Origin: a virus
IMG/VR virus record: IMGVR_UViG_3300043399_000459
Span: 1-58,714 of that record
Reading direction: 5' to 3' (one strand)
Length of the DNA stretch: 58,714 nucleotides
A model generated the notes under the pieces. That model was not told the origin of the DNA. It did no database searches and worked only from the letters and a program-made list of their open reading frames with translations. Made by a program: the position numbers and the translations under genes. Position 1 is the first letter of the stretch; the number at the start of each line of letters is the position of its first letter. This document shows, piece by piece, positions 44,248 through 50,703 of the stretch.

Positions 44248-44613
44248 TCATCGCCCCGCTCCCTTCGCCTCGGCCATAAGCGCTAGATAGGCGATAGCAT
44301 CTTCCGCGCTATCGCCATGGTAGGCGCTGCGCGTGAACAGCCGCACCTGCTTGAGCAGCGCCATGAGCAGCCAGCCCTCGCTCTCGCTCAGGTCGCGCCC
44401 GGTCACGGCGTTGAACGCCGTCACGGTCTTGCCCATGGACCTCTCGCCCTCTGGTTCGTCGTAGGTCGACGCGCGGTCGTGCATGTGCATGGCGGCGCGG
44501 CCAAGCAACTCAGGTGCCAGCGGATCCGGCAGCGTTTGCTGCGGCGTCTCCAGCGTGACGCTCTCCTCCAGCACGTGCTCGTTCGGCTCGGTGTCGCAGG
44601 GCAGGTCGTTCAT
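44248..44613 (-). CDS. DUF6378-like protein, 121 aa
   Basis: The C-terminal 80 residues (LLGRAAMHMHDRASTYDEPE, GRDLSESEGWLLMALLKQVR, YHGDSAEDAIAYLALMAEA) match DUF6378, a small helical domain common in phages. Its His/Asp/Glu pattern recalls all-alpha NTP pyrophosphatases, so a nucleotide-related role is possible but unproven. The ATG overlaps the helicase stop. It is the last gene of the leftward operon. Confidence 0.7.
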   Translation of the reverse strand: MNDLPCDTEPNEHVLEESVTLETPQQTLPDPLAPELLGRAAMHMHDRASTYDEPEGERSMGKTVTAFNAVTGRDLSESEGWLLMALLKQVRLFTRSAYHGDSAEDAIAYLALMAEAKGAGR

Positions 44614-45980
44614 CGTTTCGCTCCTTTGCGTTGCATCGCCTCTAGCAGGACGTCCTGAACCGACCGCTTCGACGCGAGCCGCTCCATGACAACCTCGTCC
44701 ATCGTGTCCTTGGCGAGTATGGGGTAGATGAGGCAGGGCCGGTCGAAGCCGGCCTGCTTCTGTCGGGCTGGGCCGATGCGCTCGATGACCTGCATGTAGT
44801 CCTCAAGCGACCAGTTCACTCCGAAAAGCGCCATGATGTTACCGCCATATTGGAGGTTTAATCCGTGTGCGGCGCTTTTAGGATGAAGGAAAAGTAATGG
44901 TATCTTCCCGTCGTTCCACTCTTTAACCGTATCAGCGTTACTGTCCAACACCCGAGCTTTAGGGTAGCGACGCCGTAGCCGCTCGAGGTCGTGCCTGAAC
45001 TGGTACGCCACGAGAACAGGCGCGCCATTCGCCTCTTCGATGATGCTATCCAGCGCATCCAACTTTGCCCCATGCACTTCCTCCCAATTGCCTTGATCAT
45101 CCGTATAGATAGCCCCGTTGGCGATCTCCAAGCACCTCTGCGTCTTGACCGCCGCGTTCGCCGCCTCGACCCCCGTCTCCTCCAGCTCCGCGAACATGTG
45201 GGCCTCCATGCTGTCGTAGACGTGGCGCACGGAGGGGATGAGGCGGACGTAGACCGGGTTGACGATCGGCTCGTCTACGTCGAGGCCCTTCACAGTCAGG
45301 CAGATGTCCTTGAGCTTCTCCTGTATCTCCACCTGCGCGTGCTCCATGGGCTGCAGGCTGTAGCCGTCATAGCCCTTGCGGAACCAGCGCATCTCGAAGG
45401 CGCTGAACGTGCGGCCCAGCCGCTCGCCTTGGTCGAGGAAAAAGGTCTGCCCCCAGAGATCCTTCAGGCCGTTCGGCGCGGGCGTGCCGGTCAGTCCGAT
45501 GAAGCGGCGGACGCGCGTGTGCGCGACCTCGGCCAGCGCCTTGGCGCGGCTGCCACCCTGCCTGATGCGGAAGGATTTCAAACGCGGTAATTCGTCAGCC
45601 ACCACGGTCTTGAACGGCCACGCGTCGCCGTAGAACGATCGCAGCCAGCCGAGGTTCTCGTAGTTCGTGCAGTAGATGTCCGCATCCGCGGCAGCCGCCC
45701 GGTCGCGCTGCTTCGGCGTGCCTGCGATGACGCTGACGCGCAGGTGGCTGAGGTGCTGCCAGCGCTTGACCTCCTCGGGCCACGTCGACCGGGCGACGCG
45801 CAGCGGTGCCAGCACAAGCGCCGGGTAGACGTCGTCGACCAGCGAGAGTTGGTCAAGGGCCGTCAGCGTCGAGACGGTCTTCCCGCCGCCCATTGGCGCC
45901 CACACGGCGCAGCGCTTGTTCTGGCATATGAAGTCAATGACGTCTTCTTGGTACGGATGCGGCTTGAAGGTCTGCGTCAC
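44610..45980 (-). CDS. SNF2-type DNA helicase/translocase
   Basis: The 456-residue superfamily 2 protein has Walker A APMGGGKT (residues 28-35), motif Ia ALVLAPLRVARSTWPEEV, motif II VVADELPR, motif III GLTGTPAPN, and motif V/VI LLFLHPKSAAHGLNLQYGGN with ERIGPARQKQAG. This is the stand-alone SNF2-like helicase often found near VRR-NUC nuclease genes in phages, and a VRR-NUC gene indeed lies at 46535-46825. Likely roles are recombination or replication-fork processing. It overlaps the genes on both sides. Confidence 0.88.
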   Translation of the reverse strand: MTQTFKPHPYQEDVIDFICQNKRCAVWAPMGGGKTVSTLTALDQLSLVDDVYPALVLAPLRVARSTWPEEVKRWQHLSHLRVSVIAGTPKQRDRAAAADADIYCTNYENLGWLRSFYGDAWPFKTVVADELPRLKSFRIRQGGSRAKALAEVAHTRVRRFIGLTGTPAPNGLKDLWGQTFFLDQGERLGRTFSAFEMRWFRKGYDGYSLQPMEHAQVEIQEKLKDICLTVKGLDVDEPIVNPVYVRLIPSVRHVYDSMEAHMFAELEETGVEAANAAVKTQRCLEIANGAIYTDDQGNWEEVHGAKLDALDSIIEEANGAPVLVAYQFRHDLERLRRRYPKARVLDSNADTVKEWNDGKIPLLFLHPKSAAHGLNLQYGGNIMALFGVNWSLEDYMQVIERIGPARQKQAGFDRPCLIYPILAKDTMDEVVMERLASKRSVQDVLLEAMQRKGAKR

Positions 45981-46953: not shown

Positions 46954-49900
46954 TCAGTCCTTGCGATAGCGATGGCACTCGAACCCTGTGGCCGCCAACG
47001 GCAGCCCCAGCGACCAACTCGGGTTCGTCGCCATCATGCCAGCCAACGCCTCCGCCGTGAAGTCCGGAGTGTCAGGCACCTCGCACACAAGCTCGTCGTG
47101 GACGCGCAGGACCACCGGATAGCCCGCCTGCTCGGCGCGGTAGAAGCCGACGAAGAACACGTCGCGGGCAGTAGCCTGCACAACATTCTCGCAGTTGTGC
47201 ACGATCATCGTGTCGCCGTTTTCGCCAGCCACCACAAACCTGCGAAGCGGCCCACTATTCACCAAATCGTAAACTTCCGCGATGTGTCGGGTGCCTCGAA
47301 CAGCCTGCTGTCCGGCACTCCGGTGTTCACTCGATAGTACAGCGTCGTCCGGTTCAGCCCCGATCGGTCTGCCGCTTCCGCAACTGTCATCCGGCCCCAT
47401 GGTGTGTTTATCGGTACGTTCGCCCGCCTGTTTCGGGCCTGCCTCGTGTACGTCGCCCAGACGCAGTTCTGCGGGCTGTATCCTGCGGAATTGTCGCGCC
47501 GCTCTAGCGTCAAGCCCTCCTTGTACGTCGGGCCCATGTCTGCCCAGAAGGCGGAGAAGGAGCGACGCCACTCTTCGCACACTTTGATACCGCGACCGCC
47601 GTAGTTTTTCCAAGCCTGATGCGTAGGCAGCGTGCAACGGTCGATCATGCTCCGCCAGACCGCAAAGGCCTTGTGGTGCGACATCCCGTGCGTCTTGCGC
47701 TTGGTCGATATGGTGTGCCGCTTCATGCACCCGCAGGACGCTTGCACGCCGCGCTTCTGCTGTTTTGTTATCTCGATCGCGGGGAGAATTATCTCTTTCC
47801 CGCATACGCAGCGGAGCGACCACAGTGATCGGCTGCCATCGCTGCCTTGGTAGATCAAAACCGTCAGGTATCCGAGTGTCTGCCCGCTCAAGTCCCTCGC
47901 TCTGTGATGCACGCACCCATCCTTCCGTAGACAGCACTTCATGGTCAGGCGTCATCCAAACGCCATTCAGACAGATTACCTCTTTAATACCCCTCCTGAC
48001 AAGACCCTCGTGCTCGACCCAAGCGCCCCCGTCCCAGAGCTTATGCGTTGTGCTGACATGTTCGATTGGCAGCCATCCGGCGTCTGTCAGTACTAGCGTC
48101 CCCTGTGCTAAGCACAGTTTGCCGTAGTATGTCTCCAGCCACTCCCACTTGCGCGTGAACTGGTTGACACCCTCGTAGAGGATCTTGCCGTCGTCGTTCA
48201 CGTGCATGTTGCGGTAGCATATGTAGCGGCCGCTCGGCAGCTTGCAGCGCACGTACATCGCGCCGTCTGGCCCCTCGCGGCGGTCGAACTGGACGTAGCC
48301 GCGCACGTCGTACGTGTCGCCCACCTCACCCCTGATCGCCTTGCGGCACGCCGCCTCGACGTCGTACCAGAAGGCCTTGGTCGCCGGGTGCGCCTTGCGC
48401 CAGCTCCAGACCACATCTTGCACCTCTTCATCGGACATAGCGTCAACACGAGTGCCGCCCATTTTGCGAAAGGCACCAACGGATCCACCAAATCCACAGT
48501 TATGGACTATCACCGGCCCTGCGTCAGTCAGGATCGCAAACCGATTTCGCGGCCCCACATTGGCAATGTCGTAGACGTTCTTCCAATTCGAGGATGCGGG
48601 CTTGTAGAACTGGGATGCGTCGACCGGGGTTACGATTGGCTCGCCGTCCGATGAAACGGAGATTACCCGGCTCGTAACCCCGGTCGACATCAATTCGATC
48701 AAGCTCGAGTTCTGGTCTATCCCAGCCATCAAGCGTGACAAGATACCTGAGAAAAGCTGCTCGATCTGTTCGCCACGGCTCAAAGACGCGGATGCCTCGA
48801 CTGCCGTAGTTGGTGTAGGCTTTGTCGTTCGGGTTGTGGCACCTGTTGAGGCAAGCGGAGATGCGATTGCACAAACGCCGTCTATGCTCGTCATCTGGGC
48901 ATACGTCTGCATAGCGGAACCACGCTTTTGTCCAACGCCCCGCTTTCTTTTTTGCGCAGCTATTGCAGCGGGTGCTGGCTCCGCGACGGATATTGTGGAT
49001 GTCGGTTCCGTACGGGCCTGCCCCGCAAGAACATTTAACAAGAACAGCTCTAAGTCCTCCGCGAGGGCCGAGATCAAAGCCAACGACTTCAAGCTCTCCG
49101 AACCTGTCGCCAATGCTTGGTCGCGGCAGTTCGGGAAGGTAGCGACCGTCTGGGCCGATTGCCAAGTCTCTCCGCACAAGATGAGATGATCCGGTGTTAT
49201 CTCCACTCCGTCTAGCTGGACGACTTGTCTCCGGCCTCGGTCCACTAGGCCTGTATTTGGCACCCACTCCACTCCGTCCCATAGCAAGTCCTCCGCTGTA
49301 ACCTCTGTAATCAGCTTTACGCCAGTTTTGGTAATAACGCGGGTACGGGGGCCTAGGCAAGCGAGTTCGGATACTTTTCCGGGGTTTTGCCGCTCGTCCT
49401 TCGTTATGTCGCCCGGATCCTTGCCGAGGATGCGCCCGGCGGTGACCTTGTAGAGGTCCGGCCCCTCGCCCCGGTCGTACGCCTTGAAGGCCTCGATCTT
49501 CCACTGCTCGCCCGCCAGCCACGCCAGCACGCGCCCCTCGATGTTCGACAGGTCTGCGATCACGAACTTCTTGCCCGGCTCGGCCACGAGGCAGCCGCGC
49601 ACGGCCATGGAGCAGCGCTCGCTGACATTGCCCCACAGGATGTCGTCGCAGTCCGCCTTGAACGCCGCGACGGTCATCTCCTGTACGTCGCCGTCGAACC
49701 AGTCGGGTGTCCTAGGTAAATTTTGCGGCTGGAAAATACGACCCGCGTCCCTGAGAGTACGTGATGCGCCGCCGTACTGCACGGTTCCCCTAAGCCGCCC
49801 GTCACTCGACACTGCGCCGAGCAAAGCCTTGTACTTCGACGGGCTGGTGGCTGCCGCCTGCTGGCGCATCTTGAGCAGCTTGCGCACCTCTGCGGGCAGC

Positions 49901-50703
49901 TCACCGGCAAGCAGCTTCCCGACGTCGTCCTTGGTCAGGCCCTCGGCGTTGACGCCCAGCTCCGCCATGCGGGCGAGGAGCGCGTTGCGCTGCGTGGTCG
50001 AGCCCAGAGCGCCGCCGGTCAGAAGGGCGGTAGCGTCGGCCAGAGATCGAGAAGCTCGTTCAAAAGCTCGGAGAGCGGATCGGGCGAGTTCTCGGTCGAC
50101 GGCGATACCACTGTCAGAAGTTCTTTGGTCGAGTAGCCAGAACTGGCGCTCAGCCCGATTACAATTCCAATCCGGCAGCCGTCGATATACGGATCGCATC
50201 GCGTCCACATCGAGGCGGGCGTATTCGATGAACCTTTCCCACTCATCCGGGTGCGTCTCCCGCGTAGCTCTGCGAAGCTTCTGGTTCTTGGGCCGGGGCT
50301 TCGAGAACAGTTGTATCAGCTTCTTGCCGTCCTTGTCCTTAGCCTTGTCGGTAGGCACCTCGAGGACGTCACAGAGTTGACCCAGAGACGCAGGCAGCGC
50401 GTGTTGGAGCGCAATTACCATGGTGTCCGTGATTTTATCCACAGGAATATGCACGCCGCGGTGGCGCAGCACGGTGCGGTCAAAGGCGCTGTTGTGGATC
50501 ACGACCTCGTCCGCCGTGTCGATCATGAGCTGCACTGGACCCTTGGCGGCCTGCCAGTCGTCGCTCGTGTCAAGCACCGTCACAGGCTCGTCGTCCCACG
50601 CGTACGCCACCAGCAAGATCTCGGCGTCCTCGGCATAGCGGTGCGCGCCGTGCTTGATGGGGGTGTCGGAGTAGGTCTCGAGGTCAAGATACAGTGTAGA
50701 CAA
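46954..50703 (-). CDS. Family A DNA polymerase with two inteins
   Basis: One open frame of 1249 codons from a TTG start (AGGAGGG 5 bases upstream). Removing two inteins (residues 449-735 and 864-1170) leaves a 655-residue polymerase, the usual size for phage enzymes with exonuclease plus polymerase. The 3'-5' exonuclease has DLET (7-10), HNSAFD (70-75) and YARLDVDAM (161-169). Polymerase motif A is DLSNIEGRVLAWLAGE (384-399). Motif B is rebuilt as GKVSELA/CGFGGSVGAF, and VHDE (1201-1204) is motif C. Both inteins lie in these conserved blocks and both end next to Cys, as splicing requires. An RNA stem upstream may control translation. It is the replicative polymerase. Confidence 0.92.
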   Translation of the reverse strand: MSTLYLDLETYSDTPIKHGAHRYAEDAEILLVAYAWDDEPVTVLDTSDDWQAAKGPVQLMIDTADEVVIHNSAFDRTVLRHRGVHIPVDKITDTMVIALQHALPASLGQLCDVLEVPTDKAKDKDGKKLIQLFSKPRPKNQKLRRATRETHPDEWERFIEYARLDVDAMRSVYRRLPDWNCNRAERQFWLLDQRTSDSGIAVDRELARSALRAFERASRSLADATALLTGGALGSTTQRNALLARMAELGVNAEGLTKDDVGKLLAGELPAEVRKLLKMRQQAAATSPSKYKALLGAVSSDGRLRGTVQYGGASRTLRDAGRIFQPQNLPRTPDWFDGDVQEMTVAAFKADCDDILWGNVSERCSMAVRGCLVAEPGKKFVIADLSNIEGRVLAWLAGEQWKIEAFKAYDRGEGPDLYKVTAGRILGKDPGDITKDERQNPGKVSELACLGPRTRVITKTGVKLITEVTAEDLLWDGVEWVPNTGLVDRGRRQVVQLDGVEITPDHLILCGETWQSAQTVATFPNCRDQALATGSESLKSLALISALAEDLELFLLNVLAGQARTEPTSTISVAEPAPAAIAAQKRKRGVGQKRGSAMQTYAQMTSIDGVCAIASPLASTGATTRTTKPTPTTAVEASASLSRGEQIEQLFSGILSRLMAGIDQNSSLIELMSTGVTSRVISVSSDGEPIVTPVDASQFYKPASSNWKNVYDIANVGPRNRFAILTDAGPVIVHNCGFGGSVGAFRKMGGTRVDAMSDEEVQDVVWSWRKAHPATKAFWYDVEAACRKAIRGEVGDTYDVRGYVQFDRREGPDGAMYVRCKLPSGRYICYRNMHVNDDGKILYEGVNQFTRKWEWLETYYGKLCLAQGTLVLTDAGWLPIEHVSTTHKLWDGGAWVEHEGLVRRGIKEVICLNGVWMTPDHEVLSTEGWVRASQSEGLERADTRIPDGFDLPRQRWQPITVVAPLRMRERDNSPRDRDNKTAEARRASVLRVHEAAHHIDQAQDARDVAPQGLCGLAEHDRPLHAAYASGLEKLRRSRYQSVRRVASLLLRLLGRHGPDVQGGLDARAARQFRRIQPAELRLGDVHEAGPKQAGERTDKHTMGPDDSCGSGRPIGAEPDDAVLSSEHRSAGQQAVRGTRHIAEVYDLVNSGPLRRFVVAGENGDTMIVHNCENVVQATARDVFFVGFYRAEQAGYPVVLRVHDELVCEVPDTPDFTAEALAGMMATNPSWSLGLPLAATGFECHRYRKD
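47194..48114 (-). mobile_element. Intein 2 in the DNA polymerase (307 aa)
   Basis: It starts at Cys864 (CLAQGTLVLTDAGWLPIEHV), has block B NGVWMTPDHEVL, block F VYDLVNSGPLRRFVV and ends MIVHN before Cys1171. It interrupts YGKL/CENVVQATARD just before the catalytic motif C region. Between block B and block F the intein frame reads as Arg/Asp/Ala-rich sequence without motifs. This is because an HNH endonuclease is encoded there in the next frame (47259-47942). The splicing blocks resemble those of intein 1 (LWDG, WV, GLV.RG, TPDH), so the two inteins are related. Confidence 0.88.
47259..47942 (-). CDS. HNH homing endonuclease out of frame inside intein 2
   Basis: The 227-residue frame is shifted +1 relative to the polymerase. 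It has a zinc-like CVCG ... CGC pair, the HNH-type block KNYGGRGIKVCEEWRRSFSA, LTLERRDNSAGYSPQNCVWA, ARNRRAN and a C-terminal helix-turn-helix-like part (MTVAEAADRSGLNRTTLYYR). This is the common phage HNH homing family. The ATG at 47942 lies inside the codons for intein block B (PDH), and the stop lies in block F (VYDLV). Later starts before RDLSGQ are possible. All of the gene lies within the intein, so nearly 700 bp are dual coding. Confidence 0.85.
   Translation of the reverse strand: MKCCLRKDGCVHHRARDLSGQTLGYLTVLIYQGSDGSRSLWSLRCVCGKEIILPAIEITKQQKRGVQASCGCMKRHTISTKRKTHGMSHHKAFAVWRSMIDRCTLPTHQAWKNYGGRGIKVCEEWRRSFSAFWADMGPTYKEGLTLERRDNSAGYSPQNCVWATYTRQARNRRANVPINTPWGRMTVAEAADRSGLNRTTLYYRVNTGVPDSRLFEAPDTSRKFTIW
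48499..49359 (-). mobile_element. Intein 1 in the DNA polymerase (287 aa)
   Basis: It starts at Cys449 (CLGPRTRVITKTGVKLITEV), has block B GVEITPDHLIL, block F VYDIANVGPRNRFAILTDAG and ends VIVHN before Cys736. It splits motif B (GKVSELA/CGFGGSVGAF). The in-frame middle (about residues 515-700) is Ser/Thr/Ala-rich, with no LAGLIDADG or in-frame HNH motif. The endonuclease is instead encoded in another frame at 48524-49177. Confidence 0.9.
48524..49177 (-). CDS. HNH homing endonuclease out of frame inside intein 1
   Basis: The gene is in the third frame relative to the polymerase (the other endonuclease uses the second). GTG 49177 gives 217 residues, and TTG 49165 (GGAG 4 bases upstream) is an alternative. 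The start is uncertain. The frame is open to 49636, but that part is shadow. The product has VKCSCGAG ... CNSCAKK zinc-type cysteines, NRISACLNRCHNPNDKAY, NYGSRGIRVFEPW, LELDRIDVDRGYEPGNLRF and a coiled C-terminus ending RHCQCGAAKSVCDPD, a recognisable phage HNH family. Its last codons overlap intein block F. Confidence 0.85.
   Translation of the reverse strand: MRRDLAIGPDGRYLPELPRPSIGDRFGELEVVGFDLGPRGGLRAVLVKCSCGAGPYGTDIHNIRRGASTRCNSCAKKKAGRWTKAWFRYADVCPDDEHRRRLCNRISACLNRCHNPNDKAYTNYGSRGIRVFEPWRTDRAAFLRYLVTLDGWDRPELELDRIDVDRGYEPGNLRFIGRRANRNPGRRIPVLQARILELEERLRHCQCGAAKSVCDPD

Follow-up and report, generated by a model that had tools for sequence, protein, structure and literature searches.

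The window analysed here is a stretch of 58,714 nucleotides, positions 1 to 58,714 of the IMG/VR virus record IMGVR_UViG_3300043399_000459. Its minus strand carries a phage family A DNA polymerase gene with two predicted inteins, each of which overlaps an HNH endonuclease gene in another reading frame. The features of the locus are as follows.

46954..50703, minus strand: family A DNA polymerase gene of a phage (DNA_pol_A, 9e-13; phrog_17, 7e-92)
48499..49359, minus strand: intein 1, 287 aa, between GKVSELA and CGFGG (polymerase motif B)
49290..49294, minus strand: Shine-Dalgarno sequence GGAGG, 7-nt spacer before ATG 49282
48524..49282, minus strand: HNH1 endonuclease gene, +2 relative to intein 1, from ATG 49282, with GTG 49267 as alternative start
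47194..48114, minus strand: intein 2, 307 aa, between YYGKL and CENVVQA of the polymerase
47941..47952, minus strand: block B of intein 2, TPDH, as read in the sequence
47940..47942, minus strand: ATG in block B of intein 2, unconserved and probably not the start of HNH2
47920..47924, minus strand: Shine-Dalgarno sequence AAGGA, 7 nt before GTG 47912
47259..47912, minus strand: HNH2 endonuclease gene, 217 aa, GTG 47912 to TGA, +1 relative to intein 2
47194..47274, minus strand: C-terminal splicing domain of intein 2, VYDLVN...IVHN (blocks F and G), containing the HNH2 stop codon

The polymerase ORF (50703-46954) is a single open frame of 1249 codons that continues uninterrupted across both inteins. 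Intein 2 extends in this frame from the Cys at 48114 to the Asn at 47194 and is followed by the +1 Cys. Both inteins begin with Cys1 in block A (CLAQGTLVLTDAGWLPIE and CLGPRTRVITKTGVKLIT), contain TPDH as the TxxH motif of block B, and end in VHN/C; N-domain and C-domain profiles match at both, indicating that the splicing domains are complete. Removal of the inteins joins the flanks as GKVSELA-CGFGG and YYGKL-CENVVQA (GKVSELACGFGG and YYGKLCENVVQA) and leaves the polymerase motif intact. The N-domain profile also matched the solved inteins NEQ068, PI-MtuI, and Spl DnaX with E values of 8e-5 to 0.025. On the basis of Cys1, TPDH, VHN/C, the restored flanks, and relatives with empty sites, the two elements are assigned to the Hint family, with protein splicing predicted from these motifs. 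The N-terminal ends of the two inteins align at 45% (66 aa) and the C-terminal ends at 48% (27 aa), with no alignment in the middle; a relatedness of the splicing domains had also been stated from the sequence alone.

The two nested HNH genes

A 227-codon ORF (47942-47259) in the +1 frame of intein 2 matches the HNH endonuclease family phrog_374 with an E value of 4e-52, in agreement with the sequence-only reading, which had described a +1 HNH gene starting in block B and ending in block F. The end of the gene lies as described, since its TGA (47261-47259) overlaps the Val-Asn codons of VYDLVN. The proposed start, the ATG at 47942, exists because the block B His codon is CAT and is followed by Glu; it therefore spans the His-Glu codons (CAT|G) and not the Asp-His codons to which it had been ascribed. 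This ATG is probably not the start of HNH2, as it is absent in the close relatives L001 and L003, which have CAC, and it was rejected because many members of clade A, the HNH2 lineage described below, have an HNH-frame stop at nt 184, downstream of the equivalent of 47942. The conserved start lies at nt 202 from Cys1, which corresponds to GTG 47912, ten codons past block B, and the HNH2 protein is accordingly 217 aa long. In clade A the start is found at nt 202, or at nt 187 or 220 in subgroups, with a Shine-Dalgarno sequence upstream; L001, for instance, has AGGAGGT-7 nt-GTG, and the studied virus has AAGGA-7 nt-GTG 47912.

HNH1 occupies the +2 frame of intein 1, so that the two genes do lie in different frames, as had been noted. 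It matches phrog_374 with an E value of 6e-29, and its homology to HNH proteins starts near 49125. The start is most likely ATG 49282 or GTG 49267, upstream of block B, through which the HNH frame runs in parallel with the intein frame; the HNH frame of intein 1 is open as far as 352 nt before Cys1. The helix-turn-helix attributed to the C-terminus of HNH2 was recovered as a weak match, and HNH1 has none.

The best match of both HNH proteins is phrog_374, and in both the match spans the zinc-ribbon and HNH regions. Both retain, in columns of the phrog_374 profile, the zinc cysteines 34, 36, 55, and 57, Arg87-Cys88, Tyr99-Gly100, and Ile104, together with Trp110, Phe117, Arg134, Tyr141, and Asn145; HNH1 deviates at several other conserved columns, including 81, 84, 107, 109, 146, 148, 154, and 157. 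Their mutual alignment reaches 33% over 84 aa. The earlier description of the two as clearly different subtypes thus holds insofar as they belong to different well-supported clades, but not with respect to the best match, which they share. The possibility that one of them is a decayed pseudogene finds no support in view of the retained zinc cysteines and most other conserved residues and the strong purifying selection on the HNH frame. The Pfam HNH profile PF01844 gave no match in the window, and detection needed the PHROGs families; no solved structure was matched by the sequence of HNH1 or HNH2.

Conservation and mobility in the intein family

Related loci were gathered by searches with intein 2, with HNH1 and HNH2, and with the splicing-domain alignments A2 and A3, which are independent of HNH, and annotated phages also supplied loci; most composites were found by the splicing domain alone. 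For scanning the collection, an alignment comprising 19 N-domains proved too heterogeneous and was replaced by two subsets; a separate scan of genome contigs returned only two loci. Among 124 related inteins with an HNH gene in an open intein, the HNH gene lies in the +1 frame in 74, in the +2 frame in 50, and in the intein frame in none; four more HNH-bearing loci have the HNH gene in +1 and a broken intein frame (fractured forms). No in-frame HNH of the canonical intein type was found downstream of any family N-domain with an HNH gene. The proposal that out-of-frame capture is a general route gains from this survey, since every HNH found in the related inteins is out of frame. The placement may be explained by the stop codon of the HNH gene, which in-frame insertion would put into the polymerase, and this explanation fits 124 of 124 cases. 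Named members comprise the APSE phages, Caulobacter phage RW and its kin, Shewanella SFCi1, Pseudomonas MR14, Vibrio 97.13, EBPR siphovirus 2, Jerseyvirus Ent1, Gardnerella AB1, and Streptococcus Javan255. The insertion sites, named by inspection, include several in polymerase motif B, the YGGKL/CEN region of the polymerase, and helicase-like genes. L010, considered as a large HNH-free intein, was rejected as such because its C-domain had been missed and a +2 HNH is present. L237:3501-4697 is a 399-aa intein in which the +1 HNH frame extends into a long, apparently repeated C-terminal part, and L003:8409 and L006:8409 carry, in another gene, a third intein N-domain belonging to the family, truncated by the sequence end.

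The closest relative of HNH2 is L002 (78% identity) and that of HNH1 is L101 (76%), each at the same polymerase site and in the same frame. In a careful HNH tree, three clades of nested genes were recovered, namely clade A (+1, containing HNH2; support 100/98), which includes the split form L146, clade B (+2, containing HNH1; 100/99), and clade C (+1; 88/79); clades B and C group together with two split forms (97/78), and the best trees put clade A amid free-standing HNHs. Frame labels form clades on the HNH tree, and along the intein tree the frame changes twice, compared with about 38 times when shuffled.

Both frames are maintained across the family. Over the HNH core, intein-frame stops number 0 in the 74 +1 members, against 462 expected under synonymous shuffling, and 0 in 46 +2 members, against 153 expected; this count (0 vs about 615) is conditioned on open inteins, a condition that only four HNH-bearing loci failed. 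The third frame shows no stop avoidance (737 vs 712 expected and 559 vs 552 expected) and is open in 0 of 120 present-day members; in 58 free-standing HNH genes, neither frame is ever open. For the studied virus alone, the intein frame would stay open over the HNH core by chance with a probability of 0.025 (HNH2) or 0.04 (HNH1); across the whole intein family, chance openness is negligible. Over the core, the HNH-frame translation of HNH2 is 73-78% identical to those of its nearest relatives, while identity of the intein-frame translations is 45-46%, no higher than in the third frame. The changes between HNH2 and L002 fall at HNH codon positions in the numbers 35, 27, and 86, with the third position dominant, and Jerseyviruses Ent1 and SETP5 differ at 12 of 192 residues in the HNH and at 30 in the intein frame. 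From these comparisons, openness seems to be the only constraint on the intein frame within the core.

Selection also acts on the starts of the nested genes. A start codon with a Shine-Dalgarno sequence of at least 4 bases is present in 89% of clade A, against 26% under synonymous resampling, and one with at least 5 bases in 75% of clade C, against 23%. In clade B, the +2 frame contains 1 stop at nt 93-186 of the N-domain, a stretch that includes block B, against 44.5 expected, with no avoidance at nt 0-90 (76 vs 52); no avoidance is seen in clade A over nt 93-186 (147 vs 142.5). Since clade B is stop-free from about nt 93, the N-terminal part of its HNH frame overlaps conserved splicing-domain sequence. 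At nt 90 of clade B, GAA, which gives the ATG, is used in 33 of 42 Glu codons, compared with 217 of 533 (p 2.5e-6).

The composites are polymorphic for presence and absence. In APSE-8 and in strains of APSE-7 and APSE-2, the polymerase gene is shorter by exactly the intein of 306 codons (2064 vs 2982 nt), and the polymerases of the APSE phages L262, L263, and L264, annotated as partial and missing internal portions, are intein-free alleles. Empty sites are found in APSE-8 and other APSE phages, in BPP-1, and in Jerseyvirus S119, where the empty site is exact. When APSE-1 is compared with intein-minus alleles, 12 of 25 N-extein differences lie within the 141 nt before the site (Fisher p 6e-8) and 8 of 9 C-extein differences within the first 24 nt (Fisher p 3e-8), p values that are optimistic because both boundaries were picked from the data. 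Differences thus cluster near the site in the pattern predicted by homing co-conversion. Among 404 Jerseyvirus records, 151 contain at least 80% of the intein-bearing gene, and a group at 71% lacks the intein. Escherichia phage buks matches only 71% of the query, as would be expected of an intein-free gene, and vB-Eco-KMB36 matches 93%. In the Jerseyviruses, differences are more numerous in the 100 nt preceding the site, but the flanks are too strongly mosaic for co-conversion to be clearly claimed. In the window itself, a helicase-like gene (44610-45980, minus strand) has the intein-free sequence NAAVKTQR/CLEIANGAIYTDD, with the junction near 45134; by its similarity to the site of a +1 composite in L173 (KTQK/C...N/CLQIASGAAYV), it is possibly an empty target.

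Some relatives are fractured or decaying. L146:3500, L243:3500, L142:135, and L152:694 consist of an IntN ending in a stop, an HNH gene, and an IntC in another open frame, and in L146 the HNH stop overlaps a possible IntC start (TAATG); L191:1892 has the same order with a GIY-YIG-like ORF between IntN and IntC. The position of L146 inside clade A points to fracture of contiguous composites as a possible source of split inteins. The APSE-like composite L121:3500-4418, whose HNH frame stops early and whose downstream polymerase is also interrupted by a stop, is to be read from these lesions as a decaying copy, and L009:5254-5725, a 157-aa intein with only an HNH remnant left in the +1 frame, is apparently a composite shrinking to a mini-intein.

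Proposed mechanism, alternatives and origin

The anatomy of these elements, the conservation of both frames, the selection on starts and Shine-Dalgarno sequences, and the presence/absence polymorphism with co-conversion-like flanks are observed features. As judged from the sequences, each insert is very probably a composite mobile intein made of two overlapping genes, a Hint intein and an out-of-frame HNH gene. In the proposed mechanism, the polymerase mRNA would be translated through both inteins, and the Hint inteins would splice themselves out as proteins, the long and probably unstructured middle of each intein being the HNH gene read in a wrong, stop-free frame. Ribosomes would also initiate internally, at the HNH gene's own start and Shine-Dalgarno sequence within the N-terminal splicing domain, to yield separate HNH proteins. 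In coinfected cells, the HNH protein could cut intein-free polymerase alleles at the insertion site, and repair would then copy the whole composite into the cut allele, resulting in homing. Such an element may have originated when an intact HNH gene was captured out of frame by an intein.

Three other readings of the inserts were weighed against this composite. They could be degenerating inteins whose once in-frame endonuclease was knocked out of frame and is now decaying, and single members do decay, such as L121 and the HNH remnant at L009:5254; nevertheless, this is highly improbable for the family, in which there is no in-frame HNH, both frames stay open over large divergence, start codons and Shine-Dalgarno sequences are under selection, and substitutions follow the HNH codon structure. 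Equally hard to sustain is programmed ribosomal frameshifting from the intein N-domain, which would produce an intein-HNH fusion with no independent initiation. It could draw on the long open HNH frame of intein 1, but in clade A a stop at nt 163 or 184 usually interrupts the HNH frame directly before the selected start and Shine-Dalgarno sequence, and in most of clade B the frame is interrupted before nt 107. Phage group I introns commonly carry HNH endonucleases (PMC3428280), which gives some background to a reading of the inserts as RNA introns carrying HNH genes. That reading was rejected and is exceedingly unlikely, because Cys1, block B, and His-Asn/Cys are present and the host frame is maintained without stops, a feature not required of an intron; a search of the whole locus against Rfam at E values up to 1 gave no match.

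Whether the composites go back to one capture or to several bears on the sequence-only reading, which had proposed two independent captures and not one duplicated composite. The nearest relatives of HNH1 and HNH2, L101 and L002, are in other phages, so the two genes were not duplicated at this locus, and this part of the proposal stands; the captures, however, are not events of this phage. Judged by these relatives, both composites are of old origin and also occupy the same sites in other phages; as members of two old lineages, they arrived with their frames already fixed. A firm claim of independent capture was also abandoned: a quick tree split HNH1 and HNH2 by free-standing HNHs, but the AU test favoured the constrained tree, and one clade for all nested HNHs is not rejected (p 0.892 on the quick tree and 0.243 on the careful tree).

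That related mini-inteins in the lineage ancestors captured different HNH genes independently, giving the +1 and +2 composites, has about an even chance of being correct. Frames that differ and are fixed by lineage, strong support for clades A and B with A among free-standing HNHs in the best trees, and HNH starts that differ relative to the intein (nt 187-202 vs 77-92) argue for this origin, while the AU results, the relatedness of the splicing domains, and the position of all insertions in the same linker argue against it. A single ancestral out-of-frame capture, after which paired linker indels shifted the HNH gene between frames, is a serious possibility, if on balance a slightly doubtful one. 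It is compatible with both AU tests, and the grouping of clades B (+2) and C (+1) on the careful tree suggests a frame change inside the nested set; however, each switch needs two compensating indels plus a second stop-free frame, and the third frame is closed in all present-day members examined.

For the composite inteins as a whole, the two-layer arrangement of intein and HNH gene apparently represents a widespread, mobile, and working kind of selfish element. With arguments about equally balanced for and against, these phage inteins may form a superfamily in which the homing endonuclease is present solely out of frame, as a separately initiated, overprinted gene that is stable over deep divergence and at many insertion sites; out-of-frame capture would then be the usual route by which mini-inteins become mobile and occasionally lead to split inteins, not a rare accident.

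Comparison with known systems

How inteins gain homing endonucleases is an old question, and the usual answer is in-frame insertion of a domain. With both genes intact and independently translated, a reason is predicted for the success of out-of-frame capture, in that the stop codon of the captured HNH gene stays outside the host frame. Surveys of inteins that follow only the host frame would call such elements endonuclease-free or overlook the nuclease, and alleles lacking the intein can be mistaken in annotation for truncated polymerases, as happened in APSE. The annotation of Salmonella phage Ent1 reads 'intein encoding splicing domains', with the nuclease overlooked. The family, with its near-identical intein-plus and intein-minus phages, offers a test set for homing, for translation of the nested gene, and for the transition from contiguous to split inteins.

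In 2009, Dassa et al. reportedly described fractured genes in which a split intein is accompanied by a free-standing endonuclease, in the order IntN, endonuclease gene, IntC. The same IntN-nuclease-IntC order occurs in five relatives (L146, L243, L142, L152, and L191), whereas the inteins of the studied virus are contiguous within one ORF (50703-46954) and the endonuclease overlaps in another frame. Canonical inteins such as PI-SceI and PI-MtuI (PMC6801210, PMC8966425) share with the present elements the Hint domain, a central endonuclease, and homing at conserved sites, but their endonuclease is an in-frame domain of the same polypeptide.

Out-of-frame HNH genes in phage genes are already known from the ShiLan domain and the Pacc40 gp60 insertion, with an HNH nested in mycobacteriophage methylases, for which the authors detected neither intein or intron motifs nor a ribosome-binding site (PMC11855218). 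The ShiLan domain and the present composites have in common an out-of-frame HNH in an open host gene and a distribution like that of homing elements, and HNH1 has a relative in the Pacc40 HNH (31% over 67% of the query). In contrast to ShiLan, the host insert here is a full intein with its splicing domains, and a conserved Shine-Dalgarno sequence precedes the HNH start. A preprint on non-canonical actinobacteriophage inteins (Gosselin et al., bioRxiv 10.1101/2025.01.02.630785), cited by PMC11855218, may report related arrangements. No description of inteins with an overlapping out-of-frame endonuclease was found in the literature covered, which excluded most subscription journals and this 2025 preprint, and priority is uncertain. 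The overlap of P46 with P45 in APSE-1 (NC_000935) was likewise already known. There, the same polymerase site as that of intein 2 carries the same +1 arrangement, with 36.5% identity across the whole intein; P46 is annotated as an HNH endonuclease overlapping P45, and the annotation records merely a CDS overlap.
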